A stretch of 64,000 nt of DNA, taken from Acetivibrio thermocellus ATCC 27405. GTDB taxonomy: Bacteria; Bacillota; Clostridia; Acetivibrionales; Acetivibrionaceae. Where the stretch lies: contig NC_009012.1 in the NCBI RefSeq assembly GCF_000015865.1, positions 3,775,081-3,839,080 of the forward strand, given 5' to 3'. The notes beneath the pieces are model-generated. The model saw nothing but the letters and a program-made list of their open reading frames with translations. It was not told where the DNA came from and ran no database searches. Shown piece after piece: positions 16,349 to 52,202 of this stretch. A program made the position numbers and the translations under genes. Position 1 is the stretch's first letter; every line of letters begins with the position of its first letter.

Positions 16349-16387
16349 AATGCTGTAAATTTTTCGATTTGAAAGAAGGTGACTTTC

Positions 16388-19146: not shown

Positions 19147-19160
19147 AGAGAGGAAGATAA

Positions 19161-19874: not shown

Positions 19875-19887
19875 AGAGGTGGAAGCG

Positions 19888-22290: not shown

Positions 22291-22303
22291 TGGGGGAATT
22301 GGC

Positions 22304-22972
22304 TTGGATATTAAGATATTAACGGTAAGATTGGAAGGTAACAGGGTTGAAAGCAGGGATATACCTAAGATAAGGGGCTATCTGGCAGGAAGGTTTCCAC
22401 AGTATCTTGAGCTTCACAATCATCTCGGAGAAAATAAATTTAATTATGGTTATCCGGTGATACAATATAAATCCATAAATGGAGTGCCGAATATTTTAGC
22501 TATAAATGAAGCTTCAAAGATATTGATAGATATTTTCTATGATGTAAAAGAAATTGATATGAAAGACAAGGTCATGAGCATCTTGGAAAAGGGTTATGTG
22601 CTGAAGACCAGGGAACTTAAAACGACGGAAAGGATGATTGAATATAGATTTTTGTCGCCGTGGCTGGCATTGAACCAAGAGAATTATGAAAAGTTTATAA
22701 ATTCGGATTCAGGTGAGCGGGTGGAAATTTTGAAGAAAATCCTTACCGGAAACATCCTGTCTATGGCAAAAGGTCTGGGTTATTGTGTGGACAAGCCTAT
22801 CGAGGTGTTTGTCAATCTGCGTCCTGTCCAGGTAAATTACAAAAATAGAAAAATGATTGGATTTAAAGGAGAATTTATTACCAATTTTATAATACCCGAC
22901 TACTTGGGACTGGGCAAGTCGGTGGCAAGGGGTTTTGGAACGGTGGAGAGAGTTGGTAAAGGTTTTGTATAG
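22304..22972 (+). CDS. cas6: CRISPR repeat endoribonuclease Cas6 (Cas6b type)
   Basis: 222 residues. The C-terminal Gly-rich loop of Cas6 is clear (YLGLGKSVARGFGTVERVG, about 201-218). Two histidines, H38 and H40, lie in LELHNH, the region where Cas6b enzymes carry their catalytic histidines. It should cut each repeat eight bases from its 3' end to give ATTGAAAC-tagged crRNAs. Translation starts at TTG 22304 after GGGGGAA; the ATG at 22290 is out of frame. It is the last I-B gene here and the only Cas6 in the window, so it may also feed the type III module. Confidence 0.9.
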   Translation: MDIKILTVRLEGNRVESRDIPKIRGYLAGRFPQYLELHNHLGENKFNYGYPVIQYKSINGVPNILAINEASKILIDIFYDVKEIDMKDKVMSILEKGYVLKTRELKTTERMIEYRFLSPWLALNQENYEKFINSDSGERVEILKKILTGNILSMAKGLGYCVDKPIEVFVNLRPVQVNYKNRKMIGFKGEFITNFIIPDYLGLGKSVARGFGTVERVGKGFV

Positions 22973-23519
22973 AGAAATGCCGGGTTAATAGAAAATATAA
23001 AGATTATAAATGTATTTTTTAATAATTAAATCAGAAGAGGGAGGAGACGTAATGGGATTTCTAACGGTTCTTGAAGTATCAAAAAAACAAAGCTATATTT
23101 TTAAATCCAACAGACTGAGAGAAAACATAGGAGCGTCGGAGATAATCGAATTTGTGACAAAAGAACTCCCACAAAAGCTGTATAACAAGTATAACGGCAG
23201 GCATATTAATTCCGGAGGCGGAAGCAGTATTTTTTACTTTGAAAATAAAGATGACTGCAAAAACTTTTCCAAGGATTATTCCAAGTTTGTACTCGAAACA
23301 TTCCCTTCTTTGGAATTCTTCATGGCAAGTCTCGAATATGATCCGGAGAAAGATATTATTATTGATAAAACTAAAGAATTTGTAAATTGCAATATTAAAT
23401 GCAACACCTATAGTGGAAATCATCCATAATTTTAGGTGCTAAAGTACAACATCATCTTTTAGCCCTTCTTAACTACTATCTTGAGCGAGTGCAGAGGGTA
23501 GTCAAGGGTTATCGATAGA

Positions 23520-25032
23520 GAGATTGTAAAATATTTTATGTAAACTAATTGACTCCTTCTATGATAGAATAATAAAGTATAGGAGGAGTTTTTTATGGCA
23601 AGAAAAAGGATAATAACACCAGAAAAGAAAGAGCTTATCAGAAATCTCATTTCTGAGTACAACATTACTTCAGCAAAGGATTTGCAGGAAGCATTGAAGG
23701 ATCTGCTCGGAGATACGATACAAAATATGTTGGAAGCAGAGCTGGATGAACATCTCGGATATGAAAAGTACGAATCAACTGAAGAAGCGAAATCAAATTA
23801 CCGTAACGGGTACACATCAAAAACATTAAAGTCAAGTGTAGGGCAAGTGGAAATAGATATCCCGCGGGACCGGAATGCAGAATTCGAGCCGAAAATTGTT
23901 CCCAGGTATAAAAGGGACATTTCAGAAATTGAAAATAAAATAATAGCAATGTATGCGCGGGGGATGTCTACCAGAGAAATCAACGAGCAGATACAGGAAA
24001 TCTACGGATTTGAAGTATCTGCCGAGATGGTAAGTAAGATCACTGATAAAATACTACCTCAGATAGAAGAGTGGCAGAAAAGGCCTCTGGGAGAGGTTTA
24101 TCCGATAGTATTTATTGACGCAATTCATTTTTCAGTAAAAAATGACGGCATTGTTGGGAAGAAGGCCGTATATATTGTGCTGGCGATTGATATAGAAGGG
24201 CAGAAAGATGTTATCGGTATTTATGTAGGAGAAAATGAGAGCTCAAAATTCTGGCTGAGTGTCTTAAATGACCTTAAAAACAGGGGTGTTAAAGACATTC
24301 TGATTCTCTGTGCTGATGCACTTTCAGGGATAAAGGATGCAATCAATGCGGCTTTTCCGAATACTGAATATCAGAGGTGTATAGTACACCAGATAAGAAA
24401 CACGCTAAAGTATGTGTCAGATAAAGACCGAAAGGAATTTGCCAGGGACTTGAAACGGATATATACGGCTCCGAATGAGAAGGCAGGGTACGACCAGATG
24501 CTTGAGGTTTCAGAGAAATGGGAGAAGAAATACCCGGCAGCTATGAAGAGCTGGAAGAGCAATTGGGATGTTATTTGTCCATTTTTTAAGTATTCGGAGG
24601 AACTACGTAAAATCATGTATACGACCAATACTATTGAGAGCCTGAATAGCAGTTATAGAAGGATAAACAAATCAAGGACAGTATTTCCTGGCGACCAGTC
24701 ACTTTTAAAGAGCATATATTTAGCTACAGTGAAGATTACTTCAAAATGGACGATGCGTTACAAAAACTGGGGTTTGATACTGGGACAGCTACAGATTATG
24801 TTCGAAGGGCGTATATAGTATAATCAAGGGGTTCAGGGAAACTCTGGTTTCCTGAACCCCCCTGTAATATTTTATACGCATCATCTTTGTCAAATTTTTC
24901 TTTTGTAAGAATTTCTTATCAGAAATTCTTTTGAATCTATAAAATTTGACAAAGCAGACTTTCGAGTCTTAAAATATATTTAAATACTAACATAGAAGGA
25001 AAATTAGTTTACACAAAAATATTTACACTGCC
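23520..25032 (+). mobile_element. IS256-family element, copy A (nested in the IS30 element)
   Basis: 1513 bp. Ends match as imperfect inverted repeats: GAGATTGTAAA... on the left and GGCAGTGTAAA... on the right (minus strand), both running into TGTAAACTAATT. A 7-base duplication, CGATAGA, flanks it (23513-23519 and 25033-25039). A strong hairpin at about 24828-24860 follows the transposase. Copy B at 34971-36483 has the same length. Confidence 0.9.
23595..24818 (+). CDS. IS256 (Mutator) family transposase, copy A
   Basis: 407 residues of the Mutator-type transposase family. The DDE triad is readable as FIDAIHF (first Asp, near residue 175), CADALSGIKDAI (second Asp, near 240) and TNTIESLNSS (Glu, near 343), with the family signature YQRCIVHQIRN in between. 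ATG 23595 follows AGGAGGAG. The frame is full length, so the enzyme should be active. It differs from copy B at only two residues seen (Q for E in LPQIEEW, N for K in LNDLKN), implying recent movement. Confidence 0.95.
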   Translation: MARKRIITPEKKELIRNLISEYNITSAKDLQEALKDLLGDTIQNMLEAELDEHLGYEKYESTEEAKSNYRNGYTSKTLKSSVGQVEIDIPRDRNAEFEPKIVPRYKRDISEIENKIIAMYARGMSTREINEQIQEIYGFEVSAEMVSKITDKILPQIEEWQKRPLGEVYPIVFIDAIHFSVKNDGIVGKKAVYIVLAIDIEGQKDVIGIYVGENESSKFWLSVLNDLKNRGVKDILILCADALSGIKDAINAAFPNTEYQRCIVHQIRNTLKYVSDKDRKEFARDLKRIYTAPNEKAGYDQMLEVSEKWEKKYPAAMKSWKSNWDVICPFFKYSEELRKIMYTTNTIESLNSSYRRINKSRTVFPGDQSLLKSIYLATVKITSKWTMRYKNWGLILGQLQIMFEGRI

Positions 25033-25102
25033 CGATAGATAAGACAAAGTCTTTACCCTTGACTACCCTCAAATGAGCTTTAAAATATCTTGGATGAAGG
25101 GC

Positions 25103-26212
<1,110 letters not shown>

Positions 26213-27437
26213 TCATACATGATTTCTCACTATGGTTGTCAATTTTTTATTTCATTTTACTGTTGCATTTAATTTTACAACGAACCAAAACTAAAGAATT
26301 ATATGAAAAACTTGAAAAGAAAAAAGCCAAAAGAGATATGTATTCTTATATAGTTGACTTTGGAGTATCGAAAAAATGCAGTTCCACAAGATTAGCTGCC
26401 GTTTACAAAGAAGAATTAAGCGGAAACTATTATTCCGGCGAGGCAAAATCCAAAATTGATATGTTCAACCAAAGGGAAAAAAGTAACAATCAATTTGCTT
26501 TAAATATTAAGGATTTGGGTGTAAGTAAAAATGAAAAAAGCTATATAGCCATTACACATATTGACGGAAACAGGATGGGAAAGCGGATAAGCAACTTGAG
26601 AGAAAGTTTTAGAAGCAAGTATAATTCTGAAAATATAAAGGAAATAAATGAGCAATACATAAATGCATTGAATCAGTTTTCAATAGATATTGACAAGGCT
26701 TTTAAAACAGCTTTTAACAAAATGGTTGAGACAGTAGAAAAGAATCGTGAAAACTTGGAAAAAGAAGGAATGGAGCTTAAGAGTTCAGTTATACCGATTC
26801 GAAAAGTTGTGCTGGCAGGCGATGATGTTTGTTATATCACTGATGCGAGGATTGCTTTGGAATGTGCTTATATTTTCTTGCGAGAGTTGGAAAAGCATAG
26901 CGTTATGGGAGAAAAGATAACGGCCTGCGCCGGTATTGCAATTGTGAAAGAAAAATATCCGTTTTTTAAAACATACGAATTATCCGAAGAACTTTGTAAA
27001 AATGCAAAATCAAGTATTGAAGAAGGCAAAATTGAATCGAGGATTGACTGGCATATAGTTCAAGGGGAATACAATAACAATTTGGATGAGATTAGAAACA
27101 CGGTTTATAAGACACTTGACGGTAAAGACCTTTCCATGAGACCGTTGGTGGTTTCAAAAGAATCAGATTCACCAAATCATTATTCTCTTTTTAGGAAGGA
27201 TATAGAGGTAATAAGATCGAGAAAATTACCCAGGGGAAAAATAAAAGGAATGTTAAAAGAAATGAAAAAAGGAGAGGCTTATTTAGATACCTATATAGAA
27301 ATTAATCAGATTTATAATGTACTTGGTGCACACCGGCTTAATGCAAAAAGCGGATTCCTAAACGGAAAATGTGTTTTGTTTGATGCAATAGAAGCATTGG
27401 ATTATTTTATACCGTTTTGTGATGAGGAGGTGTAAGT

Positions 27438-28112
27438 ATGGAAGAATATACATTGAAAATTGAATTATTGACGGACGCTGTTTTTGGAAGCGGTAATTCA
27501 GTTCCAGGGTTTGTTGATGCTGATGTTTTGCATGATGAATATGGATTTTTATATATCAACGGAAAAACTTTAAAAGGAAAACTGGGAGAAATGGCATCGG
27601 TATTTGTAAATATATTAATGGAAATAGATGAATGCAGAGAAATTGCAGAGATATTACAAAAGAAAAAAGAAGAGCTTTTTGGTGTGGCTGAGAAATACAG
27701 TCATAGCAAACTAAAATTTTCCGACTGCGAATTTTCGAAAAATATCAAAGATTATTTCAAGTGTTATATGAAAGACTCAGATATCAAGCCGGAGGAAATT
27801 TTAGAAGCACTAACGCATATAGAAACTCAGACATCTATTAATTACGTTTCAGGTGTTGCAAAGAAAAATTCATTAAGAAATTATAGAGTGATAAACAGGG
27901 GAATTGTGCTTTATTCGTCTGTTTATTCACCTAAGAAACTGGATGATGAGGATAAAATTCTTTTGGCTTCGGCTTGTTCGATGCTTCGTCATTTGGGCTC
28001 CAATGAAACAAAAGGAAAAGGAGAAGTCAGGGTTTCACTTTGGCTGAAAGAAAAAGAAGTAACACATGAATATATAAGACTTTTGGAAAAGAAGGTGAAG
28101 CTAAATGCATAA
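27438..28112 (+). CDS. Type III RAMP, Cas7-like (Csm3/Cmr4 type)
   Basis: 224 residues. The RAMP pattern is visible: a first strand TLKIELLTDAVFGSG, then GFLYINGKTLKGKL (the IPGSSLKG-like loop, about 37-50) and the Gly-rich end LRHLGSNETKGKGEVRVSL near 190-205. Such subunits bind the crRNA along its length and may cut target RNA with an acidic loop residue; DADVLHD near 28-34 is a candidate. It begins two bases after the cas10 stop with GAGGAGG before it, in one operon with the genes downstream. Which Cas7 class it belongs to is unresolved. Confidence 0.75.
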   Translation: MEEYTLKIELLTDAVFGSGNSVPGFVDADVLHDEYGFLYINGKTLKGKLGEMASVFVNILMEIDECREIAEILQKKKEELFGVAEKYSHSKLKFSDCEFSKNIKDYFKCYMKDSDIKPEEILEALTHIETQTSINYVSGVAKKNSLRNYRVINRGIVLYSSVYSPKKLDDEDKILLASACSMLRHLGSNETKGKGEVRVSLWLKEKEVTHEYIRLLEKKVKLNA

Positions 28113-29706
28113 ATGTATTCAGTTTGACATTCAGGCACTGGAGCCTTTGAAACTTGGCAAATTTGAAAGGGATTCAAATAATGAGTACAGCTATTCATAT
28201 ATTCCGGGTTCTGTAGTAAAAGGAGCCGTTGCTTGGGGATTGGTTGAAGAAAAAGGCTTTGTTCCGAAGGAGATATTGAACGGCAGTTCAATATTTTACA
28301 ATGCTTATCCTTTGCTGGATGGTAATCCTGCAATACCAATGATGCAGGGGTATATGGGTGATAAGCAGGAGATACGTTCAAATAAAGATAATGTCCGTGT
28401 GGTACACTCATTTAACAGAAAAATAGAAAACAGCATTCCTTTAAACAATTATGAATTTGTGGTTAAAGATGCGGAAAATGAAAAGCTCCTGCTGGGATAT
28501 AATCCGGGAAAGATCGAAAATCTTCATATCAATAAAAAAGATGCGTTAAATGACAGTAGTAAATTAAAAATGTTCAGATATGAGGCAATAAGAAAAGGTG
28601 AATGCTTTAGGGCCTATATTCGAGTTCCTGAGGAGCATTATGATGACATAGTAAAGATATTGAGTAAAGATTATATTTATTTCGGCGGTTCAAGGGGAAG
28701 TGGCTATGGAAAGTGCAGAGTAACCGGTATAAAAGAAGTTTCTGCTGTTTGTTTGTATGAATCGGATTTGGATATTAAAGAGGATTTATATATTTACTTT
28801 TTATCCGATGCAATACTGTATTACGACGGTAAAGTTAATACATACATACCGGAAAATGAATTAAAAGAAATGCTTGGAATTGAAGGTAAATGTGAATATG
28901 TAGAGTCCTATTCCGGTCTTGGAGTTGCGGCGTCTTACAATACTTTATACAGAACAAATACAGTTTGCTACACTGCTGTATTGAAGGGAAGTGTAATAAA
29001 ATACAGAGTGGAAGGAAAGATTAACCCGGATAGAATAAAAAAATTGGCATCTGAAGGTGTTGGGCTAAGAAGAGAGGACGGATATGGCCAAATTGCCGTA
29101 TTGGGCAAAATTCAAGATGATATGGTCGTTTCAAGATATAGGAAAAATGATATTGTTGAAAAATCAGATATTGAACTTACAGATGAGGACAAACGTGTTG
29201 TAAATATGATTTTATGTAATATTTTTAAGACCCGGTCAAAACTTCAAATTGAAAAAATGGTAATAGAACTGCTAAAAGATGTAAACAGACCGCAAGAGAG
29301 TCTTCAAAGTCAAATAGGAAAGCTTCTTAATATTTTTCAGAATGGTTTCTACCAGACGGAAGATGACTTTAGAAAATATTTGAATGAATATCTTGAACAT
29401 ATAAGAAAGAAAAAGGGAAAGGCCGTATGGCATAAATTGTATGACTTTACTGTTGCAAACACTTTGGACAAGTTCAGATCAGAAAGATTAAGTATTCAAA
29501 AAATGCTTGAGGATTTTGTACAGAATAAATTCAATTCTGTTTTCCGTGAAATTGAGAATATTGTGAATAAAGGCATTACTTTGGGTATTTACAAATATCC
29601 TGTTGAAAGTCAAAAAGCTCAAGTTCTACATAATCTTAAAATGGACTTCTTTATCAGCTTTTTTGAATACTGTCTGAGGATGAAAGAAAAAGAGGTGATA
29701 TCATGA
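28105..29706 (+). CDS. csx10: Csx10-like type III-D RAMP (Cas5 role)
   Basis: 533 residues. RAMP motifs suggest two domains: IPGSVVKGAVAWGLVEEKG near residue 33, GGSRGSGYGKCRV near 194, and GLRREDGYGQIAV near 318. This pair of Gly-rich loops with the GSRGSGYGK form is what I associate with Csx10, the Cas5-like subunit that marks type III-D. A C-terminal extension of about 170 residues (after 350) is helical and Lys/Glu-rich. The start overlaps the previous stop by eight bases. The name is by motif, not by search. Confidence 0.7.
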   Translation: MHKCIQFDIQALEPLKLGKFERDSNNEYSYSYIPGSVVKGAVAWGLVEEKGFVPKEILNGSSIFYNAYPLLDGNPAIPMMQGYMGDKQEIRSNKDNVRVVHSFNRKIENSIPLNNYEFVVKDAENEKLLLGYNPGKIENLHINKKDALNDSSKLKMFRYEAIRKGECFRAYIRVPEEHYDDIVKILSKDYIYFGGSRGSGYGKCRVTGIKEVSAVCLYESDLDIKEDLYIYFLSDAILYYDGKVNTYIPENELKEMLGIEGKCEYVESYSGLGVAASYNTLYRTNTVCYTAVLKGSVIKYRVEGKINPDRIKKLASEGVGLRREDGYGQIAVLGKIQDDMVVSRYRKNDIVEKSDIELTDEDKRVVNMILCNIFKTRSKLQIEKMVIELLKDVNRPQESLQSQIGKLLNIFQNGFYQTEDDFRKYLNEYLEHIRKKKGKAVWHKLYDFTVANTLDKFRSERLSIQKMLEDFVQNKFNSVFREIENIVNKGITLGIYKYPVESQKAQVLHNLKMDFFISFFEYCLRMKEKEVIS

Positions 29707-31034
29707 TTTATAAAAACAGATTGCTTAAAACAATAAGATACAATGTTAAAGCAACAACGATTTCACCTTTGGCAATTAGAGATGACGAAGATAATCTAAA
29801 AATAGATCAATTGACAGGCAAAGTTTATATACCCGGTTCATCTGTTGCCGGTGCTTTTAGAAACTATTATGAAAATTATATTGATAAGAATTCCAATGAG
29901 AATTTTAATGAATTGTTTGGCGGCCAAAAAACAGGAATGAGTCAGATTGTTTTTTATGACGGTTATCTTGTTAATGATTATGTGAAAGAGATGATTTCGT
30001 CAAGACCGGGGATAAAGATGGATCTTAAAAGAATGACAGTTGAAGTTTCCGATGATGCAAAAAAATCCGGTAAGAAATTTAAAAGGCGTTTTTTAAATGA
30101 AGGATTAACTTTTGAGTTTGTTTTTGAGCTGAACAATTATGAAGATGATGCCGGAAAATTTGAAGAAAAGCAAAGAAAATTCGAAGAGTTGCTAAAAGCT
30201 TTCTCAATAGGGGATATTTCATTAGGAAGTAACAAAATGATTGGCTATGGGAGATTTAGAGTGGACTCAATTTCAAAAAGCGTGTTTGACTTTACAAATA
30301 TTAATGATTTGTTGAAGTATATGTTGATGGAGACTGATAGCACTGAGATAACTCAAGATATATTAGGCAGGGAGCAAGAGACTTCAAAAGTTCGTTTTAA
30401 AATAAAAGGAAAAACTGTTACCCCTCTATTGGTGAAAGACGAAACAGTTCGTTTATCAAACGAGTCGGACGGCATTAACATAAAAGACAGTAGAGGCAAC
30501 TATATTATTCCCGGAAGTTCAATTAAAGGTGTTATAAGGTCACGGGCGGAGAGACTGCACAGAACCTTTCCCTGCATTGGTGAGGAAATTTTAACAAATA
30601 TTTTTGGTATAGAATCAAAAAAGGATGATGATGGACATATTTCAAGACTGAGTTGCTTTGATGCGGTAGTTAAAAATCCCAACAAAGGCATATACAACAA
30701 GATAAAGATTGACTATTTTACAGGAGGAGTCATGCAAGGAGCATTGATGAATGATGAGGTTGTAATGGGAGATGTTGAGATAGAGTGTACCTTTAATACA
30801 TCAGGATTAAATGATTACAAAAGAGAGATTGGGCTTTTGCTTTTGGTGTTAAGGGATTTGTGCAAAGAAGATTTAAGTATAGGAAGCGGTTATGCTGTAG
30901 GAAGAGGATATATCAAGGCAGAAACTTTGGAATTGTATGACGGTGAAAAATTAGTTCTTGATTTTAAGTCACCAAATAGAGAGGTATTGAAAAGATTTGA
31001 TTCCTATATATCGAGCTTGATGAATGTGGGGTGA
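29703..31034 (+). CDS. Tandem Cas7-Cas7 fusion, type III RAMP
   Basis: 443 residues built from two Cas7-like RAMP units. Unit 1 (about 1-205): VYIPGSSVAGAFRNYY, MDLKRMTVE, and SLGSNKMIGYGRFRV. Unit 2 (about 225-440): YIIPGSSIKGVIRSRAERL, KIDYFTGGVMQGAL, and SIGSGYAVGRGYIKAE. Acidic residues in MDLKR and KIDYF sit where Csm3-type subunits carry the RNA-cleaving Asp. Fused Cas7 subunits are known in III-D relatives and were carried further in type III-E. The gene overlaps the end of the csx10-like gene by four bases. Confidence 0.8.
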   Translation: MIYKNRLLKTIRYNVKATTISPLAIRDDEDNLKIDQLTGKVYIPGSSVAGAFRNYYENYIDKNSNENFNELFGGQKTGMSQIVFYDGYLVNDYVKEMISSRPGIKMDLKRMTVEVSDDAKKSGKKFKRRFLNEGLTFEFVFELNNYEDDAGKFEEKQRKFEELLKAFSIGDISLGSNKMIGYGRFRVDSISKSVFDFTNINDLLKYMLMETDSTEITQDILGREQETSKVRFKIKGKTVTPLLVKDETVRLSNESDGINIKDSRGNYIIPGSSIKGVIRSRAERLHRTFPCIGEEILTNIFGIESKKDDDGHISRLSCFDAVVKNPNKGIYNKIKIDYFTGGVMQGALMNDEVVMGDVEIECTFNTSGLNDYKREIGLLLLVLRDLCKEDLSIGSGYAVGRGYIKAETLELYDGEKLVLDFKSPNREVLKRFDSYISSLMNVG

Positions 31035-31040
31035 TGACAA

Positions 31041-31406
31041 ATGAAAATTGAAAAAATTAAAAGCGGAGATATAGCTTCTTTGATAAAAGATTTTGACAAT
31101 CGCATTATATACTACTTTGATAATTTGAAATTTGGCAAGGGACAGATAGAACTGGATACGGATAATGTTAATGAAGCCTTTTTCTTTGAAGAAGGGAAGT
31201 GTTTGCACATATACAGGGAAGATGGAATAAAAGGGATACTTTATATTGAAGAACCGGAGGATAAAGAGTTTATTTCGGAAGAACAGATTTTGGAAGAGAG
31301 GATTTTAAAAGAACCTCTTAAAGTTTTGGTTGTAAAAAAATATATTGAATATGATGAGGATGGACAGGCTTACATATCAAGAACGTTGCCGGCAAAGTTC
31401 ATATAA
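31041..31406 (+). CDS. Csx19-like small protein (candidate)
   Basis: 121 residues, acidic, no membrane segment. Pattern: IIYYFDNLKFGKGQIELD, then a hydrophobic-aromatic run EAFFFEEGKCLHIYREDGIKG, then IYEP-like YIEEPEDKE and a basic C-terminal end RTLPAKFI. In type III-D loci a small protein named Csx19 occupies this slot between RAMP genes and has a similar layout. The similarity is loose, so Csx19 is a positional guess. It lies six bases after the Cas7-Cas7 stop, in the same operon. Confidence 0.5.
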   Translation: MKIEKIKSGDIASLIKDFDNRIIYYFDNLKFGKGQIELDTDNVNEAFFFEEGKCLHIYREDGIKGILYIEEPEDKEFISEEQILEERILKEPLKVLVVKKYIEYDEDGQAYISRTLPAKFI

Positions 31407-31420
31407 GGGAGGAATGAATT

Positions 31421-33406
31421 ATGGGCAATAATGAAAATGTTGTGTATAAATCAAAAGCACCATATAACTTTATTGGATTGGAAGACTTCATTTTGGATAA
31501 ATGTAGTGATGAAGAAGAACTTTTAATGCATGAAAGGTATCATGAAGGTTTGAAGACAGGATGCATTCAGTATGAAATCGAGGTAATAACACCTCTTCAT
31601 ATTTCTGCAGGTAAAAAAGAATCTGGTAAAGAGAAAGAAGACAGTGAGGAAGAAAGTACCAGAGAAGAAGAACTCTTTAAAAATCCTCTTGGGCAATATG
31701 TTATTCCGGGGAATACAATTCGTGGCCTCACAAGGTACAACGCTTCCATATTTTCTTTTGCGTCAGTGATAAATGAGCCAAAAGGAAAGAAAGATATTGA
31801 AAACAAAAGATTTTTTTACAGAACTTTTGCATCCAAAGATGCAAATATAAGAAAGTGGTATTCTGATACTTTGGGAATGAGGCTGCGTCAAAGAGGAAGT
31901 TTTAAATACACTGTTCTTGAAAAGGTTCATGCCGGTTACATACGTAAAAGGGGAGAGGAATATGTTATTACTCCTGCAGTTAAGATAGGAAACAAAAATG
32001 TGGACGATGAAAGCAGAATGAAATCGTATATGCCAATACATGAGTGGGAACTAAGAAATTTAAACGTTCAAGGGGTATATTATTTATACAATGACAATCT
32101 CAAAAAAGAAGATTACAAAAGTGATTCGACTTTAAGAGAAAACCGTAACAGTCAGTACAGACCATACTTTATAGAAGTAAGATATAATGTTGCGGAGGGA
32201 AAACCTAAAATTGATATTAACGGAAAGTTCAAAGGTATGCTTGCCAATTCAAATTATATAAATAGCAAGAGGCACCACTATTTAATATTTGAGGAAGATA
32301 AAAACAGTGCTGAAATAGTTGTATCAAAAAAATTGGCAGAACTTTACACAGATGATTTGAAGTACACGCAAGAGCGCAATGCTGCAAGCAAAGAGATTTA
32401 TAAAGAATATTATGAACTTCCCAAAGAAGGAGAAGTAAAACCGGTTTTCTTTGTAAAAGAAGGTGACAGGCTTATTTTTGGTTTTACTCCGTATCTGAGA
32501 ATTCCGGCCGAAGGAGATATATACGGCGGAATACCGGAGGTTCACAAAAACTATACCGGAACGGATTTTGTTGATGCCATGTTTGGATGGAGAGATTTTA
32601 GAACGAAGCTTTCGTTTTTGGATGCTGTTTGTGAAAGCCCAAATCCTGAAATAACAAAAGAGTATGAAATGATGTTGGCGGAGCCAAAACCGTCATGGTA
32701 TAAAGGTTATCTGAAACAAAGAAAAGACACTTTGGAATCGTATAGCACAGAAGGGTACGAAATAAGAGGACGGAAGTTTTACTGGATGAAAGAAAGCCTT
32801 GATATTAAGGGAATGGAAGAACAAGAAAAGAAAGAAAGACTTGTTACAAGGATGAAGTGCTATGCTGAAAATACTAAATTTATAGGAAAAGTTAAATTTG
32901 AAAATTTGACAGATGAGGAATTGGGACTTTTAATATACTCATTAAAACAAGGAGACACGGAAGGGTACTTTAACCTGGGTAAAGGAAAACCTTATGGATT
33001 CGGTAAATGCAGGATACGGATTTTGGGACTTTTTGTGGAAAATATAAAAGAAAAGTACACTTCTTTTAATGCTAATTATCTCAAGGAGGAAAAGTCAGAC
33101 AAATATGTGGAAGCTTTTAGGAAATACATAATTGAACATTACAGAAAAAAGGTGAGCAATGTAAATGAAATTATAAGTTACAGGGAGTTTGAACTTAGTA
33201 AAAAGATTTTGAAAAATTCAGAAACCAGATATATGAAGGTGGGAGAGTTTGCTCAAAGAGCTGAGCTGCCTATGTTGGAAGATGCTGTCCGAGAGACCGG
33301 TAATGTAATATCTACAAAAATGAAAGGGGCAGAGAAGAAAAATAGTAATCACAAGGTAAAAAGTGACAAGCGGAAGAACCATAATGAATCAAATAAAACA
33401 ACATAA
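31421..33406 (+). CDS. Large Cas7-like RAMP (SSO1426/TIGR03986-like)
   Basis: 661 residues. RAMP signatures are an early strand QYEIEVITPLHISAG, YVIPGNTIRGLTRYNASIFSFAS near residue 90, FMFGF-like LIFGFTPYLRIPAEGDIYGG near 355, and the late Gly-rich loop FNLGKGKPYGFGKCRIRI near 525. The length and domain order fit the long SSO1426/TIGR03986-like RAMP typical of III-D loci. The C-terminal 40 residues are very basic and Asn-rich, probably disordered and RNA-binding. GGGAGG precedes the ATG. Confidence 0.75.
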   Translation: MGNNENVVYKSKAPYNFIGLEDFILDKCSDEEELLMHERYHEGLKTGCIQYEIEVITPLHISAGKKESGKEKEDSEEESTREEELFKNPLGQYVIPGNTIRGLTRYNASIFSFASVINEPKGKKDIENKRFFYRTFASKDANIRKWYSDTLGMRLRQRGSFKYTVLEKVHAGYIRKRGEEYVITPAVKIGNKNVDDESRMKSYMPIHEWELRNLNVQGVYYLYNDNLKKEDYKSDSTLRENRNSQYRPYFIEVRYNVAEGKPKIDINGKFKGMLANSNYINSKRHHYLIFEEDKNSAEIVVSKKLAELYTDDLKYTQERNAASKEIYKEYYELPKEGEVKPVFFVKEGDRLIFGFTPYLRIPAEGDIYGGIPEVHKNYTGTDFVDAMFGWRDFRTKLSFLDAVCESPNPEITKEYEMMLAEPKPSWYKGYLKQRKDTLESYSTEGYEIRGRKFYWMKESLDIKGMEEQEKKERLVTRMKCYAENTKFIGKVKFENLTDEELGLLIYSLKQGDTEGYFNLGKGKPYGFGKCRIRILGLFVENIKEKYTSFNANYLKEEKSDKYVEAFRKYIIEHYRKKVSNVNEIISYREFELSKKILKNSETRYMKVGEFAQRAELPMLEDAVRETGNVISTKMKGAEKKNSNHKVKSDKRKNHNESNKTT

Positions 33407-34970: not shown

Positions 34971-36483
34971 GAGATTGTAAAATATTTTATGTAAACTAAT
35001 TGACTCCTTCTATGATAGAATAATAAAGTATAGGAGGAGTTTTTTATGGCAAGAAAAAGGATAATAACACCAGAAAAGAAAGAGCTTATCAGAAATCTCA
35101 TTTCTGAGTACAACATTACTTCAGCAAAGGATTTGCAGGAAGCATTGAAGGATCTGCTCGGAGATACGATACAAAATATGTTGGAAGCAGAGCTGGATGA
35201 ACATCTCGGATATGAAAAGTACGAATCAACTGAAGAAGCGAAATCAAATTACCGTAACGGGTACACATCAAAAACATTAAAGTCAAGTGTAGGGCAAGTG
35301 GAAATAGATATCCCGCGGGACCGGAATGCAGAATTCGAGCCGAAAATTGTTCCCAGGTATAAAAGGGACATTTCAGAAATTGAAAATAAAATAATAGCAA
35401 TGTATGCGCGGGGGATGTCTACCAGAGAAATCAACGAGCAGATACAGGAAATCTACGGATTTGAAGTATCTGCCGAGATGGTAAGTAAGATCACTGATAA
35501 AATACTACCTGAGATAGAAGAGTGGCAGAAAAGGCCTCTGGGAGAGGTTTATCCGATAGTATTTATTGACGCAATTCATTTTTCAGTAAAAAATGACGGC
35601 ATTGTTGGGAAGAAGGCCGTATATATTGTGCTGGCGATTGATATAGAAGGGCAGAAAGATGTTATCGGTATTTATGTAGGAGAAAATGAGAGCTCAAAAT
35701 TCTGGCTGAGTGTCTTAAAAGACCTTAAAAACAGGGGTGTTAAAGACATTCTGATTCTCTGTGCTGATGCACTTTCAGGGATAAAGGATGCAATCAATGC
35801 GGCTTTTCCGAATACTGAATATCAGAGGTGTATAGTACACCAGATAAGAAACACGCTAAAGTATGTGTCAGATAAAGACCGAAAGGAATTTGCCAGGGAC
35901 TTGAAACGGATATATACGGCTCCGAATGAGAAGGCAGGGTACGACCAGATGCTTGAGGTTTCAGAGAAATGGGAGAAGAAATACCCGGCAGCTATGAAGA
36001 GCTGGAAGAGCAATTGGGATGTTATTTGTCCATTTTTTAAGTATTCGGAGGAACTACGTAAAATCATGTATACGACCAATACTATTGAGAGCCTGAATAG
36101 CAGTTATAGAAGGATAAACAAATCAAGGACAGTATTTCCTGGCGACCAGTCACTTTTAAAGAGCATATATTTAGCTACAGTGAAGATTACTTCAAAATGG
36201 ACGATGCGTTACAAAAACTGGGGTTTGATACTGGGACAGCTACAGATTATGTTCGAAGGGCGTATATAGTATAATCAAGGGGTTCAGGGAAACTCTGGTT
36301 TCCTGAACCCCCCTGTAATATTTTATACGCATCATCTTTGTCAAATTTTTCTTTTGTAAGAATTTCTTATCAGAAATTCTTTTGAATCTATAAAATTTGA
36401 CAAAGCAGACTTTCGAGTCTTAAAATATATTTAAATACTAACATAGAAGGAAAATTAGTTTACACAAAAATATTTACACTGCC
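34971..36483 (+). mobile_element. IS256-family element, copy B
   Basis: 1513 bp, same length, ends and orientation as copy A at 23520-25032. The 8-base duplication CTTATTAT is perfect, which supports a recent direct insertion. With copy A it brackets about 9.9 kb that contain the bulk of the type III-D-like operon. Confidence 0.95.
35046..36269 (+). CDS. IS256 (Mutator) family transposase, copy B
   Basis: 407 residues, intact, with the same DDE residues as copy A and two amino-acid differences (E in LPEIEEW, K in LKDLKN). ATG follows AGGAGGAG. A long hairpin (about 36279-36311) closes the transcription unit inside the element, so it may also be polar on the interrupted CARF gene. Confidence 0.95.
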   Translation: MARKRIITPEKKELIRNLISEYNITSAKDLQEALKDLLGDTIQNMLEAELDEHLGYEKYESTEEAKSNYRNGYTSKTLKSSVGQVEIDIPRDRNAEFEPKIVPRYKRDISEIENKIIAMYARGMSTREINEQIQEIYGFEVSAEMVSKITDKILPEIEEWQKRPLGEVYPIVFIDAIHFSVKNDGIVGKKAVYIVLAIDIEGQKDVIGIYVGENESSKFWLSVLKDLKNRGVKDILILCADALSGIKDAINAAFPNTEYQRCIVHQIRNTLKYVSDKDRKEFARDLKRIYTAPNEKAGYDQMLEVSEKWEKKYPAAMKSWKSNWDVICPFFKYSEELRKIMYTTNTIESLNSSYRRINKSRTVFPGDQSLLKSIYLATVKITSKWTMRYKNWGLILGQLQIMFEGRI

Positions 36484-37922
36484 CTTATTATTGAATATTT
36501 CATCCAGGAAAACACAAAGAAAATTAGCGGAAACTGTGACGCAATGGTTCTCACACTTGGTACGTCTTATGAACCGTTGGTATTATCCATTTCTGTATTA
36601 AAACCTGAGAAAGTATTGATTTTATATACTGATAAGTCTCATCATCTTCTCGATGATGTAATAGAATTTACAAAACTAAAACCAAGTCAATATGTAGCAA
36701 CTGATGTGGATGCGGAAAATCCGTTGCAATTATACAGAAAGATAAAAGATGTGTATGAAAAATGGGGAAGACCCAGGAATATATATGTTGATTTTACAGG
36801 TGGAACAAAGTCAATGGCTGCAGGTTGTGCAATGGCAGGTTCGGCTATAGGGGCGAAACTGATTTATATTGCCGGCAATTTTCTTACAGATCTTAGGAAG
36901 CCTGAACCGGGAAGCGAAAAACTCTGTTATATTGATGATCCTTATACTGTTTTTGGAGACTTGGAAAGAGAACAGGCCATTTCGTTATTTAACAAAATGG
37001 ACTATGTATCTGCGTACAGGATATTTGAAGAATTGGAACAAAGAGTCCCGGGTACGAAAGAATATAGTGCTTTAAAGTATATATCAAAAGCTTATAATGC
37101 TTGGGATAGCCTTGATATAAGCGGAGCAGCGGATAATTTGTCAAAATGCTATGAGATAGTTGTAACAGAAGGAAAGATAGATAAAAGTTTTGTTTTGAAT
37201 TCCCATATTGAGAAACTGGAAAAACAATTGGGAGTTATTAGGGTATTGGAAAAAATTCATTGCAGTGAAGAAGCGGCTAAAAATAAAAGTGTAATTTTTG
37301 ACAATATAGGCTATTTGATTGCCAATTTATATCAGAATGCAATGAGAAGAGAAAAGCAAGAAAAATATGAGATGGCATCACTTCTTTTATATCGTATACT
37401 TGAAATTGTTGAGCAAAAAAGGTTATGGAATTACGGTGTGGATACCTCGGATGCAGATTTTACCAAATTATGTGAAGATGAAAAAGTTTTGCTTGAGAAG
37501 GCCAATAAAATCATAAGAAGTGTAAAAGGGTTTAATGAATGGAAGCAACTAGACAAGAAAATAAGCCTTTTAGCCGGATATATACTCCTTGCGGCAGTTG
37601 GGGATGATATAATAAAAACTAAAAAACCCGGTAAAGAGATTGACAGTATAAATAGATTGAGAAACAAAGTTGAGGCAAGAAATAATAGTATTTTTGCTCA
37701 TGGTTATGAATTTATTAGTAAAGAAAAGTATAATGAATTTAAAAAAGTGGTTGAAGATTATATGAACTTGTTGTGTTCTATAGAAGGAATAGATAAAGAA
37801 GAACTGTTTGATTCATGCGAGTTTATAAAGCTATAGCCGAGAGTTAATATGATTAAAGAATAAGGTGTTGAAATTAAAACCAGATTATGTTATGTTTTAA
37901 TTAAAGTGATAAGTAACATTTT

Positions 37923-38128
37923 ACAAAATGTGGATACAAAATTATTGAGAATTTTGAGTTCATGTTCGTTAAAGCCTTGGAAATAGTGGTATGGAAGCTT
38001 ATGTTGATAGCAAAAAATTGAATGAAAAATGGTGGATTTTAGGAGAATTTTGATAAAATATGACCAAAAGAGTTCAGTCAAAAAAATCTTGTAAGCATTG
38101 ACATTTAAGCAATATCACCTCGAGGACT
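37923..38128 (+). promoter_or_regulatory. Leader of CRISPR array 2
   Basis: Homologous to the array 1 leader over about 206 bases and ending in the same CGAGGACT before the first repeat. The strongest conserved stretch is TCAAAAAAATCTTGTA about 30 to 50 bases before the repeat. It lies after the CARF-HEPN gene with no other gene between. The preceding 80 bases contain nothing I can name. Confidence 0.8.
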
Positions 38129-41100
38129 GTTGAAGAGGTACTTCCAGTAAAACAAGGATTGAAACCTTTTTTTATCTCGTTATCTTCACCGTCTGTGTAT
38201 CGTTGAAGAGGTACTTCCAGTAAAACAAGGATTGAAACATTTCTCATATTCAATTTTTACCTTTTCCATTTTTTAGTTGAAGAGGTACTTCCAGTAAAAC
38301 AAGGATTGAAACATCTTGGGGTGCAAGAGGTCGCTGGTTCAAATCCAGTCACGTTGAAGAGGTACTTCCAGTAAAACAAGGATTGAAACATGGGCATGCT
38401 CATATGGTGTATCCCTCAACGCTATAGTTGAAGAGGTACTTCCAGTAAAACAAGGATTGAAACCTATCTGTTGCGATTCTCCGCCACTGGGATTATCACC
38501 GTTGAAGAGGTACTTCCAGTAAAACAAGGATTGAAACATTCACAAAATCAGCACTCAAGATGGGAAGTGACTTGGTTGAAGAGGTACTTCCAGTAAAACA
38601 AGGATTGAAACATCATACTACCCATAAAACCTTCTAATTGCTTTAGCGTTGAAGAGGTACTTCCAGTAAAACAAGGATTGAAACTTTTCCTTACAATTGT
38701 TAAACATCCAAATATCGTCATGTTGAAGAGGTACTTCCAGTAAAACAAGGATTGAAACCGCACATTTCTATCCCTATACTGTTGCGGTTGGTAAGTTGAA
38801 GAGGTACTTCCAGTAAAACAAGGATTGAAACTATGTATCATAATGCACGTGGCACTAACTGTAAGACTTGTTGAAGAGGTACTTCCAGTAAAACAAGGAT
38901 TGAAACACGACAACATGAGAAGAAAAGGGGATGAAGCACAGAGTTGAAGAGGTACTTCCAGTAAAACAAGGATTGAAACTCTTCTCTTAAAGCACTACCA
39001 GTATCTTCTACTATTGTTGAAGAGGTACTTCCAGTAAAACAAGGATTGAAACTTGTATGTATTTTATTAATATAGTGTGCTTGTAATTGTTGAAGAGGTA
39101 CTTCCAGTAAAACAAGGATTGAAACGGATTTGTCAAGTCTGCTAAAATAGCGGGCGGCAAAAGTTGAAGAGGTACTTCCAGTAAAACAAGGATTGAAACC
39201 CTTCTCCCCATTTACCACCGGGCAAATTAACTGTAGTTGAAGAGGTACTTCCAGTAAAACAAGGATTGAAACGTTAATCCCAAATTATGCTCAAAAGAAA
39301 AAAACCAAGTTGAAGAGGTACTTCCAGTAAAACAAGGATTGAAACAATATTGGAATCCAAAATAACCTTCAATTTTCCACCAGTTGAAGAGGTACTTCCA
39401 GTAAAACAAGGATTGAAACGTGACGTTTTGGCGTCTATTGAAAATCTAGGATATGTTGAAGAGGTACTTCCAGTAAAACAAGGATTGAAACTTTCACATG
39501 CATAATATGTGAAATAGCGACCGAACAGTTGAAGAGGTACTTCCAGTAAAACAAGGATTGAAACAACCTCCTTTTTATATTTCTGGATCATCATCATAAG
39601 TTGAAGAGGTACTTCCAGTAAAACAAGGATTGAAACCAGTATTGCATTGTTATTCCTCGCTTTCTTTTTGTTGTTGAAGAGGTACTTCCAGTAAAACAAG
39701 GATTGAAACATACACTTCAAGAGAATAATGTCCAGTTCGTGTCGGGTTGAAGAGGTACTTCCAGTAAAACAAGGATTGAAACATGGTGATGAAGTGAGGT
39801 ATGAAGCTGGAAGCGGAGAGTTGAAGAGGTACTTCCAGTAAAACAAGGATTGAAACTTTTATAGTAGATTAAGTTTTCTGCGTTAAAATAATGTTGAAGA
39901 GGTACTTCCAGTAAAACAAGGATTGAAACATTGTCTTGAACTCAGGGTCTATATACCGCACCAAGCAGTTGAAGAGGTACTTCCAGTAAAACAAGGATTG
40001 AAACCTTCGGATAATCCGTCTTCTCGTTTAATTCTTAAGCCAGTTGAAGAGGTACTTCCAGTAAAACAAGGATTGAAACACATATACGAAGGTTTAAACA
40101 GGACAGCAGAGCAAAGGTTGAAGAGGTACTTCCAGTAAAACAAGGATTGAAACGACTACATTCTTTTAATTTTTAAAAAAGAAATATTAAAGTTGAAGAG
40201 GTACTTCCAGTAAAACAAGGATTGAAACAATCTTCTGCGAGCAGAAGGAGTTCGTTTCTGTTGCAACGTTGAAGAGGTACTTCCAGTAAAACAAGGATTG
40301 AAACCCCAAAGAAAGCGCATGATAGGGTCTTTAGGTGGCTTCGGTTGAAGAGGTACTTCCAGTAAAACAAGGATTGAAACATATTACAGTAACAACTAAA
40401 GCAGGACATAAAAGTGTTGAAGAGGTACTTCCAGTAAAACAAGGATTGAAACTACATGATATTACCTCCTATTTTTATTTTTCTTCCAGGTTGAAGAGGT
40501 ACTTCCAGTAAAACAAGGATTGAAACAGCATCCCTACTTAAAGAGACTGGGGGCATATAACCCCGTTGAAGAGGTACTTCCAGTAAAACAAGGATTGAAA
40601 CTTCAATCGTGGCCTCCAGGGAACGGGCGTAAAACAGTTCTTGTTGAAGAGGTACTTCCAGTAAAACAAGGATTGAAACATAGAAGGGGCTTAAGCCCTT
40701 TTTATTCTGACCTGAAGTTGAAGAGGTACTTCCAGTAAAACAAGGATTGAAACAGGAAGCAGAGGATTACGTACGTCAGAAAACAGACTTGTTGAAGAGG
40801 TACTTCCAGTAAAACAAGGATTGAAACTTTTGTCAAGCCATTGATACATCCTTTAATGTCTAGTTGAAGAGGTACTTCCAGTAAAACAAGGATTGAAACG
40901 TATAGCACAGGCCCAAGTAAAAGAAAGGAGTTCATCAGTTGAAGAGGTACTTCCAGTAAAACAAGGATTGAAACCTACAGCTATAGCTTGCTTGAATACA
41001 AACTCAACGAGTTGAAGAGGTACTTCCAGTAAAACAAGGATTGAAACGTCCCTCCTTATGCTTCAACATTGATTGCTACGCCTGTTGAAGAGGTACTTCC

Positions 41101-41268
41101 AGTAAAACAAGGATTGAAACAACCTTACTATGATGTTATAACATACAAAGGTTGTAAAGTTGAAGAGGTATTTCCAGTAAAACAAGGATTGAAACCTCAA
41201 ACTCAGTGATACTAAGTATTTTAAAAGAAAAGTTGAAGAGGTACTTCCAGTAAAACAAGGATAAAAAC
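38129..41268 (+). CRISPR. CRISPR array 2, 43 repeats / 42 spacers
   Basis: I count 43 repeats of 37 bp beginning GTTGAAGAGG and ending ATTGAAAC. They differ from array 1 only at position 8 (A instead of T). The repeat at 41159 has a T in TATTTCC and the last (41232-41268) ends ATAAAAAC, so decay is at the right, leader at the left. Spacers are about 35-40 bases. The spacer at 38313-38352 looks like the 3' half of a tRNA; the spacer at 40680-40716 carries a terminator-like hairpin. cas1 follows 91 bases later. Confidence 0.99.
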
Positions 41269-41359: not shown

Positions 41360-42355
41360 ATGAAGCTGATTCTGAATACACCCGGACTTTACCTTTGTAA
41401 AAGGGGAGAGTGCTTTCAGATTCAAAGCGAGAATGAAAAACGGGAAATAGCTGCAACTAAAGTTGACCAAATAATGATAACCACTCATGCAGCTCTTACA
41501 ACTGATGCAATTGAACTGGCTCTTGAATACAATATTGACATAATATTTTTAAAAAACACGGGACAACCAATGGGGCGTGTATGGCATTCAAAACTTGGAA
41601 GTATCAGTACAATTAGAAGAAAACAATTATTCCTCCAGGATAGCCCGCTTGGGCTTCAACTTGTAAAAGAATGGATCTTGGAGAAAATGGATAATCAAAT
41701 ACGGCTGTTAAAGAAACTGGAAGTTAACCGCAGAGATGATGAAAAACGTGCTATAATCAGGGATACCATAGAAAAGATTGAAAAGCAAAAAGCTAACATT
41801 ATGTCGATTAACAATAAAGAAACAGTGAACAATGTAAGAAATATGCTTCTTGGTTATGAAGGAACTGCCGGAAGAGTATATTTTGAAACCCTTGGCAAGT
41901 TGATTCCTGAGAAATATGCTTTTGAAGCGAGAAGCCGGAATCCTGCGAAAGATCCTTTCAACTGTATGCTCAACTATTCCTACGGTATTTTATATTCCAG
42001 CGTTGAAAAAGCCTGCATAATTGCAGGATTAGACCCATACATTGGCATTATGCATACCGACAATTATAATAAGAAAGCTCTTGTATATGATATGGTTGAA
42101 ATGTACAGAGGATATATGGATGAAATAGTTTTCAGGCTGTTTAGCACAAAGAAAGTTCAAGACGATTTTTTTGACAAGATTGAAGATGGTTACTATCTCA
42201 ATAAAGAAGGAAAGCAACTGCTAATATCCGAGTATAACAAAGAGCTGGAAGTCAAAATGAATTACAGAGGAAGAAGAATAGAATTTGCCAACATAATCCA
42301 GTACGACTGCCATCAGATTGCAAATCGCATACTGAAGGAGGATATACCATGTTGA
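41360..42355 (+). CDS. cas1: CRISPR integrase Cas1
   Basis: 331 residues. Catalytic residues are readable: Glu167 in GYEGTAGRVYFE, a His near 232 in IGIMHTDNYNKKAL, and acidic residues in VYDMVEMYR near 245-253. With Cas2 it integrates new spacers at the leader end of the arrays. AAGGAGGTGCC just before ATG 41360 is a near-perfect ribosome site. Its stop overlaps the cas2 start. The length fits the I-B type Cas1 family. Confidence 0.97.
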   Translation: MKLILNTPGLYLCKRGECFQIQSENEKREIAATKVDQIMITTHAALTTDAIELALEYNIDIIFLKNTGQPMGRVWHSKLGSISTIRRKQLFLQDSPLGLQLVKEWILEKMDNQIRLLKKLEVNRRDDEKRAIIRDTIEKIEKQKANIMSINNKETVNNVRNMLLGYEGTAGRVYFETLGKLIPEKYAFEARSRNPAKDPFNCMLNYSYGILYSSVEKACIIAGLDPYIGIMHTDNYNKKALVYDMVEMYRGYMDEIVFRLFSTKKVQDDFFDKIEDGYYLNKEGKQLLISEYNKELEVKMNYRGRRIEFANIIQYDCHQIANRILKEDIPC

Positions 42356-49489: not shown

Positions 49490-49557
49490 AATTAAATAAT
49501 ATTTTGGTAATAAAATGAGGATTAAAGATAATTTTGAAACTACGGGAGGAATTGATA

Positions 49558-50346
49558 ATGAAGAAAGTAGCATTGGTATTAGTAATTGTAAGTGTGTTTA
49601 TTATGTTGTTATCAGTTGCGACGGCTGCGATAGAATTGCCGTTGAGAGTTGAAGTAAACGGAGAAAGAGTATATTTTCCGGACGAGCAGCCATTTATCGA
49701 TTCAAACGGGAGGACCCAGGTACCGGCGAGATTTATAGCGGAGAAGTTGGGAGCGAACGTAACATGGGATGGAAAAGAGAAAAAGGCAGTGTTTGAGAAA
49801 GGAAGCAAGAAACTTGTTTTGTACATAGGGAAAGCAGAATATGAATTAAACGGAGAGCAGAAGAAAATGGATACAGCTGCGCTGCTGATATCAGGAAGGA
49901 CATTTGTACCCGCGAGGTATGTGGCAGAGGCGTTTGATGCAACAGTGAGTTGGGATCCGGATATCAGGACAGTATACATAAATACAAATTCAAAGCCGGC
50001 TGGTAAGAAGGAAGGAACAAAGATAGTAGCCGGGTTTGAGGTACCTTTAGATACTAATCTGACGGTTACACCTACAACATGGGGAGGATGGACGGAGGCT
50101 TGTTTTGAAGTAAATTTGCTACGAGCGGATGTAGAAGGACAGCTGGAAGACTTAAGACAAATACTTTTACAAAAATGTGACAGCAGTACAGTGGATGAAG
50201 TTATAGCTTATGTTTCGCAGAAAAAAGAAAGAACATATTATTTACCTGATAAATATATATATGACAAGAGAAGTGGAAGGTATATATGGGTAAAGGAATC
50301 ATTTTTAGAAGATATAAATGTGTTTTACTGTGCTGAGGATTTTTAA
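49558..50346 (+). CDS. Secreted copper-amine-oxidase-N domain protein, copy 1
   Basis: 262 residues from ATG 49558 (GGGAGGAATTGATA precedes it). Signal peptide about 1-24 ending near ATA-A. A copper amine oxidase N-terminal type domain (about 25-145) has PFIDSNGRTQVPARFIAEKLG and ISGRTFVPARYVAEAF, the paired strand-helix motifs of this cell-surface domain. The last 110 residues form a second, unnamed domain with LLRADVEGQLEDLRQILLQ and YVSQKKERTYYLP. Despite the name, no copper-binding or oxidase residues are expected. First of three tandem paralogues. Confidence 0.8.
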   Translation: MKKVALVLVIVSVFIMLLSVATAAIELPLRVEVNGERVYFPDEQPFIDSNGRTQVPARFIAEKLGANVTWDGKEKKAVFEKGSKKLVLYIGKAEYELNGEQKKMDTAALLISGRTFVPARYVAEAFDATVSWDPDIRTVYINTNSKPAGKKEGTKIVAGFEVPLDTNLTVTPTTWGGWTEACFEVNLLRADVEGQLEDLRQILLQKCDSSTVDEVIAYVSQKKERTYYLPDKYIYDKRSGRYIWVKESFLEDINVFYCAEDF

Positions 50347-50524
50347 AATAAAATAAGGCAAGAAGAAAATAAAATTTTTTCAATATTTTAATGTTTTATA
50401 AGACAAAACTAAAAAATAAGTAAAATATAGCTTGAGGCAATATATTGTTTATAATAAAATATAAATGTGATTTGAGTAAAAATAGAAAGAAAAAACAATT
50501 TTAGTTATAAGGGAGGAATTGATA

Positions 50525-51328
50525 ATGAAGAAAGTAGCATTGGTATTAGCGATTGTGAGCGTGTTTATTATGTTGGTATCAGTTGCGGAAGCTGCGATAG
50601 AATTGCCGTTGAGAGTTGAAGTAAACGGAGAAAGAGTATATTTTCCGGACGAGCAGCCATTTATCGATTCAAACGGGAGGACCCAGGTACCGGCGAGATT
50701 TATAGCGGAGAAGTTGGGAGCGAATGTAACATGGGATGGAAAAGAGAAAAAGGCAGTGTTTGAGAAAGGAAGCAAGAAACTTGTTTTGTACATAGGGAAA
50801 GCAGAATATGAATTAAACGGAGAGCAGAAGAAAATGGATACAGCTGCGCTGCTGATATCAGGAAGGACATTTGTGCCTGCAAGATATGTGGCAGAGGCTT
50901 TTGATGCAAAAGTGAGCTGGGACCCGGATATAAGGACTGTATACATAAATACAAATTCGAAGCCATCTGGCAAAAAGGAAGGAACCGAGATAGTTGCTGG
51001 ATTTGAGGTGCCTTTGGATACTAATTTGTTAGCTGTAGAGACAACATGGGGTGGAAAAACAGAGGCCTGTTTTGAAATAAATTTACTGAGAGCGGATGTA
51101 GAAGGACAAATTGAGGATTTAAGACAAATACTTTTACAAAAATGTGACAGCAGTACAGTGGATGAAGTTATAGCTTATGTTTCGCAAAAGAAGGAAAGAG
51201 AATACTACTTGCCGTCAAAATATATATATGATAACAAAAGCAAAAGATATATTTGGATAAAAGAATCTTTTATGGAAGACATAAATGTTTTTTATTGTTC
51301 TGCAAGCTATAAAAGGTCGGAAGAATAA
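50525..51328 (+). CDS. Secreted copper-amine-oxidase-N domain protein, copy 2
   Basis: 267 residues, same architecture as copy 1. The stretch from about residue 23 to 130 is almost identical to copies 1 and 3, including at DNA level, while the signal peptide (LAIVSVFIMLVSVAEA), the linker around residues 165-185 (LLAVETTWGGKTEACF) and the C-terminal end (SASYKRSEE) differ. GGGAGGAATTGATA before the ATG is also kept. Confidence 0.8.
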   Translation: MKKVALVLAIVSVFIMLVSVAEAAIELPLRVEVNGERVYFPDEQPFIDSNGRTQVPARFIAEKLGANVTWDGKEKKAVFEKGSKKLVLYIGKAEYELNGEQKKMDTAALLISGRTFVPARYVAEAFDAKVSWDPDIRTVYINTNSKPSGKKEGTEIVAGFEVPLDTNLLAVETTWGGKTEACFEINLLRADVEGQIEDLRQILLQKCDSSTVDEVIAYVSQKKEREYYLPSKYIYDNKSKRYIWIKESFMEDINVFYCSASYKRSEE

Positions 51329-51401
51329 GAAATATGCTGATGTTGCCGGGTATTTACTGTGAAGAATGATTTAATTCGTCAAAACATAGGAGGAATTGAT
51401 A

Positions 51402-52202
51402 ATGAAGAAAGTAGCATTGGTATTAGTAATTATGAGCGTGTTTATTATGTTGACATCAGCTGCGGCAGCTGCGATAGAATTGCCGTTGAGAGTTGAAGTA
51501 AACGGAGAAAGAGTATATTTTCCGGACGAGCAGCCATTTATCGATTCAAACGGGAGGACCCAGGTACCGGCGAGATTTATAGCGGAGAAGTTGGGAGCGA
51601 ATGTAACATGGGATGGAAAAGAGAAAAAGGCAGTGTTTGAGAAAGGAAGCAAGAAACTTGTTTTGTACATAGGGAAAGCAGAATATGAATTAAACGGAGA
51701 GCAGAAGAAAATGGATACAGCTGCACTGCTGATATCAGGAAGGACATTTGTGCCTGCAAGGTATGTGGCAGAGGCGTTTGATGCAAAAGTGAGCTGGGAC
51801 CCGGATATCAGGACTGTATACATAAATACAAATTCGAAGCCATCTGGCAAAAAGGAAGGGACAAAGATAGTAGCCGGATTTGAGGTGCCTTTGGATACTA
51901 ATTTGGCAGCGGTTGAAGAAGAGTGGGGTGGAAAGACAGAGGCTTGTTTTCAAATTAACTTACTGCGCGCAGATGTAGAAGGACAAATTGAGGATTTAAG
52001 ACAAATACTTTTACAAAAATGTGACAGTAGTACAGTGGATGAAGTTATAGCTTATGTTTCGCAAAAGAAGGAAAGAAAATACTACTTGCCGTCAAAATAT
52101 ATATATGATAACAAAAGCAAAAGATATATTTGGATAAAAGAGTCTTTTATGGAAGACATAAATGTTTTCTATTGCTCTGCAAGCTACACGAGATCTGAAT
52201 AG
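51402..52202 (+). CDS. Secreted copper-amine-oxidase-N domain protein, copy 3
   Basis: 266 residues, same architecture as copies 1 and 2 and closest to copy 2 in the C-terminal domain (YYLPSKYIYDNKSKRYIWIKE). It differs in the linker (LAAVEEEWGGKTEACF) and end (SASYTRSE). Only 73 bases separate it from copy 2. The next gene begins 16 bases after its stop but is interrupted by an IS701-like element. Confidence 0.8.
   Translation: MKKVALVLVIMSVFIMLTSAAAAAIELPLRVEVNGERVYFPDEQPFIDSNGRTQVPARFIAEKLGANVTWDGKEKKAVFEKGSKKLVLYIGKAEYELNGEQKKMDTAALLISGRTFVPARYVAEAFDAKVSWDPDIRTVYINTNSKPSGKKEGTKIVAGFEVPLDTNLAAVEEEWGGKTEACFQINLLRADVEGQIEDLRQILLQKCDSSTVDEVIAYVSQKKERKYYLPSKYIYDNKSKRYIWIKESFMEDINVFYCSASYTRSE

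Follow-up and report, generated by a model that had tools for sequence, protein, structure and literature searches.

Spacers against integrative elements and prophages are known from the type I-B CRISPR systems of Clostridia. An element that uses a tRNA gene as its integration site brings with it a duplicate of the 3' part of the tRNA, and this duplicate often breaks in the anticodon loop (PMC8371274). Sites resembling attP that use tRNA-Pro occur in the phages Giles, PaV-LD and Alteromonas P24. A spacer may also match the chromosome of its own host and be tolerated, as in Pectobacterium atrosepticum, where a changed PAM renders harmless a natural self-targeting spacer that matches the island HAI2 (PMC3630108).

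A spacer that can be compared with all of these lies in a window of 64,000 nucleotides from Acetivibrio thermocellus (C. thermocellum) ATCC 27405 (contig NC_009012.1, positions 3,775,081 to 3,839,080). Like the clostridial I-B spacers, it appears to be directed at foreign integrating DNA, is leader-proximal and has a handle of the I-B type, ATTGAAAC; unlike them, it has a protospacer that would straddle an attachment core common to the element and a host tRNA gene. The phage sites resemble it in the tRNA used and in the break within the anticodon loop, and their cores lie near an integrase gene. These three phages, however, belong to unrelated hosts, and their cores are about 80-86% identical to the spacer. 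With the HAI2 case it shares a tolerated host match and a wrong PAM, whereas the target of the HAI2 spacer is a gene in a resident island instead of a core common to an attachment site and a tRNA (PMC3630108).

The reading of this spacer as an ordinary kind of CRISPR memory, aimed at the sole sequence of an element that is also the host's and yet not hitting the host, is well supported. Since no part of an element other than its attachment core is at the same time host sequence, a spacer against the core tests how type I systems separate self from non-self. The case also points to an element with an integration site in the tRNA-Pro(GGG) gene of C. thermocellum, which is a species used in industry; no phage of C. 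thermocellum turned up in the literature searched.

The spacer and its match to tRNA-Pro(GGG)

CRISPR array 2 (38129-41268, plus strand) comprises 43 repeats and 42 spacers; spacer counts of 78 and 42 are given in PMC4860712. The final repeats, at 41159 and 41232, are degenerate, which places the leader at the low-coordinate end. This leader (37909-38128, plus strand) is 67% identical to that of array 1 over 215 nt. The spacer, third from the leader among the 42 (38313-38352, plus strand; 40 nt, ATCTTGGGGTGCAAGAGGTCGCTGGTTCAAATCCAGTCAC), stands between two exact 37-nt repeats on the plus strand, one at 38276-38312, which is the source of the 5' handle, and the other at 38353-38389. A unique sequence of spacer length, identical repeats, a leader and cas genes mark it as a CRISPR spacer. 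With up to three mismatches allowed, a 31-nt segment of the spacer matches nowhere else in the window, and 100 shuffles produced no chance match.

The first-pass annotation described this spacer as the 3' half of a tRNA-Pro(GGG)-like gene, and the fold it proposed, with the loop TTGGGGT, the 3' arm GCAAG, a variable loop and a T arm, is correct. The host genome, a single contig of 3,843,301 bases, has one tRNA-Pro(GGG) gene (called by ARAGORN). On the minus strand at C1:818612-818648, this gene contains the exact 37-nt core TTGGGG...CAC, which occurs otherwise in the whole genome only in the spacer. Spacer and gene agree in 38 of 40 positions, where the annotation had asked for more than about 85% identity. 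The agreement consists of 37 exact matches from the first anticodon-loop base onwards and one preceding C, which may match by chance; the shared segment (CTTGGGG...CAC) occupies 38315-38352 on the plus strand. Only spacer positions 1 and 2 (38313-38314), at the seed/PAM end, differ (ATC in the spacer, TGC in the tRNA). The annotation had already recognised that the first bases fail to complete the anticodon stem, and this failure is the informative part of the match.

No further copy of the attachment sequence is present in the host genome, in which only the tRNA gene and two spacers match. Inspection by eye of the open frames listed near tRNA-Pro(GGG) revealed no integrase or phage gene, so the integration site looks empty.

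A match of this length could reflect accidental self-acquisition from the chromosomal tRNA-Pro(GGG) gene, the spacer having survived through two later seed mutations and the lack of a PAM. The 38/40 match agrees with such an origin, and self-derived spacers are known (PMC6990116). Nevertheless, both changes fall precisely at the end of the phage attachment core, and Cas1/Cas4 normally picks a PAM-flanked site, whereas the host site has no PAM. Self-acquisition is thus very unlikely.

Attachment sites in tRNA-Pro(GGG) and the source of the spacer

The identity between spacer and tRNA is confined to the 3' part of the tRNA and sets in with the first base of the anticodon loop, as expected of an attachment fragment. 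A pattern that excludes intact tRNAs returned viral contigs with orphan tRNA 3' halves, all of which share this start on alignment. When aligned, the orphan tRNA-Pro(GGG) 3' halves of six distinct phages (Giles, PaV-LD, Alteromonas P24 and the IMG/VR contigs L034, L035 and L036) start at the same one or two bases. The sequence upstream of them has no likeness to a tRNA, and ARAGORN calls no tRNA in the stretches checked. The distance from the core to a tyrosine integrase gene is 72 to 276 bp in the three IMG/VR contigs, about 110-130 bp for Giles and PaV-LD, and roughly 800 bp in Alteromonas P24. In two further viral contigs with an orphan 3' half (L041 and L042), no integrase was present among the ORFs tested. 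The record of the prophage prophiGD51-2 starts with the tRNA-Pro core. The suggestion in the first-pass annotation that the spacer came from the attachment site of an element gains support from these phage attP and attR sites, which break at the same base.

A junction resembling attR is present in a relative, the MAG DTU069 (L011), where the exact 37-nt core is preceded by unrelated sequence and the break point is that of the spacer. On its inner side lie phage-type genes (a phrog_36 regulator and a DUF2513 gene), and on its outer side a serpin gene, the end of which matches that of the serpin gene next to the complete tRNA in L005. A search for the left end of the prophage in DTU069 found nothing.

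The relatives of the host are Acetivibrio species. In the relative G009, an orphan, slightly decayed tRNA-Pro(GGG) 3' half is located at G009:C2:354857-354894 (L075 9858-9895). Its neighbours are genes for ParA, an IrrE-like protein and a D12 methyltransferase, and no integrase was present among eight ORFs tested. This copy may mark an old integrated element.

A functional phage-borne tRNA-Pro gene has also to be considered as the source, given that the collections contain numerous matching phage sequences with a tRNA-Pro annotation. Those listed, however, match the spacer at only 82-88%; they are genuine tRNA genes and were rejected as the source. The bases ATC, at 29-31, would break two anticodon-stem pairs, which argues against an intact tRNA gene as the source. 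Furthermore, exact identity to the tRNA of the host genus is needed by an attachment core and not by a phage tRNA. Derivation from a phage tRNA gene is therefore most improbable. Another candidate, MT837937, had the look of a phage record that shares the repeats; it gave no more than a short match of 26 nt and was discarded.

Taken with the common break point, the match very probably means that the spacer derives from the attP or attR site of an element with tRNA-Pro(GGG) as its integration target. The stretch that would come from the element side is short, at two or three bases, and ATC joined to the core had no match in IMG/VR, phage records, plasmid records or 391 genomes of the class.

According to the proposed mechanism, a phage or other integrative element inserts into the host tRNA-Pro(GGG) gene and carries the tRNA 3' half from the first anticodon-loop base, so that the tRNA would be rebuilt on integration. 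The captured DNA would comprise two or three bases of the left arm of the element (ATC) and the first 37 bases of the common core, and would have been taken from attP or, after integration, from attR.

PAM, seed and the host tRNA gene

Type I effectors recognise a PAM situated 5' of the protospacer, and the bases with which the spacer begins serve as the seed. The first-pass annotation held that the spacer, if it matched the host tRNA, would be self-targeting unless the PAM was wrong, and proposed inspecting the flank of the host match for the I-B PAM. Its caveat holds: the host site has GCT in the place of the PAM, besides the two mismatches within the seed. Table 1 of PMC8482600 gives TTN as the I-B PAM, credited to a study of C. 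thermocellum. An NCA PAM was derived from three in-silico protospacers of a 169-spacer I-B set (PMC4860712), which may belong to another locus of the ATCC 27405 genome. The other spacers of the two window arrays yielded no usable protospacer from which a PAM could be read. Because GCT fits neither of these literature PAMs, the host gene does not combine a PAM with a complete seed match, and on present evidence the spacer is not effective against it.

At the source, the situation would be reversed. The crRNA spacer would open, at its 5' end, with the element-side bases, and this is the part at which the type I effector reads PAM and seed. With a PAM presumably present at the source, the crRNA would be expected to direct attack to attP, and to attR if the element is integrated. 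The chromosomal tRNA gene (attB, or attL after integration) would be spared for want of both a PAM and a complete seed match. The cell can thus probably attack the invader and leave its own tRNA alone.

Another function that could be assigned to the spacer is crRNA-guided silencing of the host tRNA-Pro. The long match to the host gene is compatible with this, as is the position near the leader, from which good expression can be expected. The crRNA, however, has the sense of the tRNA and therefore cannot pair with the tRNA transcript, which applies to a type III complex as well, and the DNA site has neither a PAM nor a seed match. Insertion sequences, moreover, cut the type III gene cas10d in two. 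Silencing of the tRNA is scarcely credible.

A second spacer, the survey of the class and the CRISPR-cas surroundings

A second spacer against the same tRNA is located at C1:1713847-1713885 (L074 9848-9886). It is number 19 of the 96 spacers of a different array (C1:1712609-1719090; repeat GTTTTTATCGTACCTATGAGGAATTGAAAC) and reads, in the sense of its crRNA, TTCTA followed by TGGTCGGAGTGACTGGATTTGAACCAGCGACCTC. Of its bases, 34 are antisense to the 3' end of tRNA-Pro(GGG), including CCA, and 5 extend past the tRNA. These 5 nt are unlike the host flank, with mismatches at spacer positions 3-5; the adjacent host flank is GTT. The seed end of this spacer, too, lies outside the tRNA. All 39 of its positions are matched in a sister species' chromosome (L028/L019), where the flank is CGT and not a TTN PAM, and other matches have one or two mismatches. 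Such matches occur because the sequence 3' of tRNA-Pro(GGG) is alike across the genus. In view of the perfect match to the sister chromosome, the second spacer is of less certain origin than the first. The right arm of the same attP is a possible source, and an attR junction in a sister lineage would yield both spacers.

The 391 genomes of the class were scanned, in both senses, for a repeat of the ATTGAAAC type followed by a tRNA T-arm word. The scan was confined to repeats ending in ATTGAAAC. It returned two convincing tRNA spacers, both in this genome and both against tRNA-Pro(GGG). Six hits in other genomes were set aside; five of these lie in or beside tRNA-like sequence outside arrays (ARAGORN calls a tRNA at four of them), and the sixth, L077 (G094), is a genuine spacer that has a T-arm-like word and no clear tRNA.

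A spacer on a core boundary has four possible arrangements, two of them with the seed outside the core, and both spacers are of the latter kind; they come from two arrays, lie at opposite ends of the tRNA core and have opposite sense. The resulting prediction is that an attachment-core spacer persists only if its seed falls beyond the core. That they are kept only when the PAM/seed end points away from the tRNA is a tentative proposal, more doubtful than probable; with two cases behind it, it is a hypothesis and not a result. If true, a crRNA of this kind would recognise attP and attR and spare attB and attL, and would thereby provide a built-in block of integration, or clearance of the element, with the tRNA unharmed.

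In the window, array 1 (10123 to approximately 16100, plus strand) has a repeat that differs by one base from that of array 2. It is followed by the type I-B effector operon cas8b, cas7, cas5, cas3 and cas6 (16379-22972, plus strand; PADLOC profiles). Array 2 is flanked by the type III-D operon (23010-33406, plus strand; cas10d in two pieces and csm3/csx10/cas7-like genes) on one side and by cas1 (Cas1b; 41360-42355, plus strand) and cas4 (PF01930; 42614-43228, plus strand) on the other.

What splits cas10d into its two pieces (23010-23429 and 26236-27435) is a Mutator-type insertion sequence at 23595-24818 together with another transposase-like gene, on the minus strand at 25103-26173. An insertion sequence is present in two copies, at 23520-25033 inside cas10d and at 34971-36484 between two Csx1 genes. 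The copies are 99.9% identical over 1514 nt, which by sequence comparison suggests recent insertion sequence activity within the CRISPR region. Further downstream, at 49524-52202, a gene of about 270 aa occurs in three tandem copies of about 0.9 kb, the first part of which is 93-98% identical.
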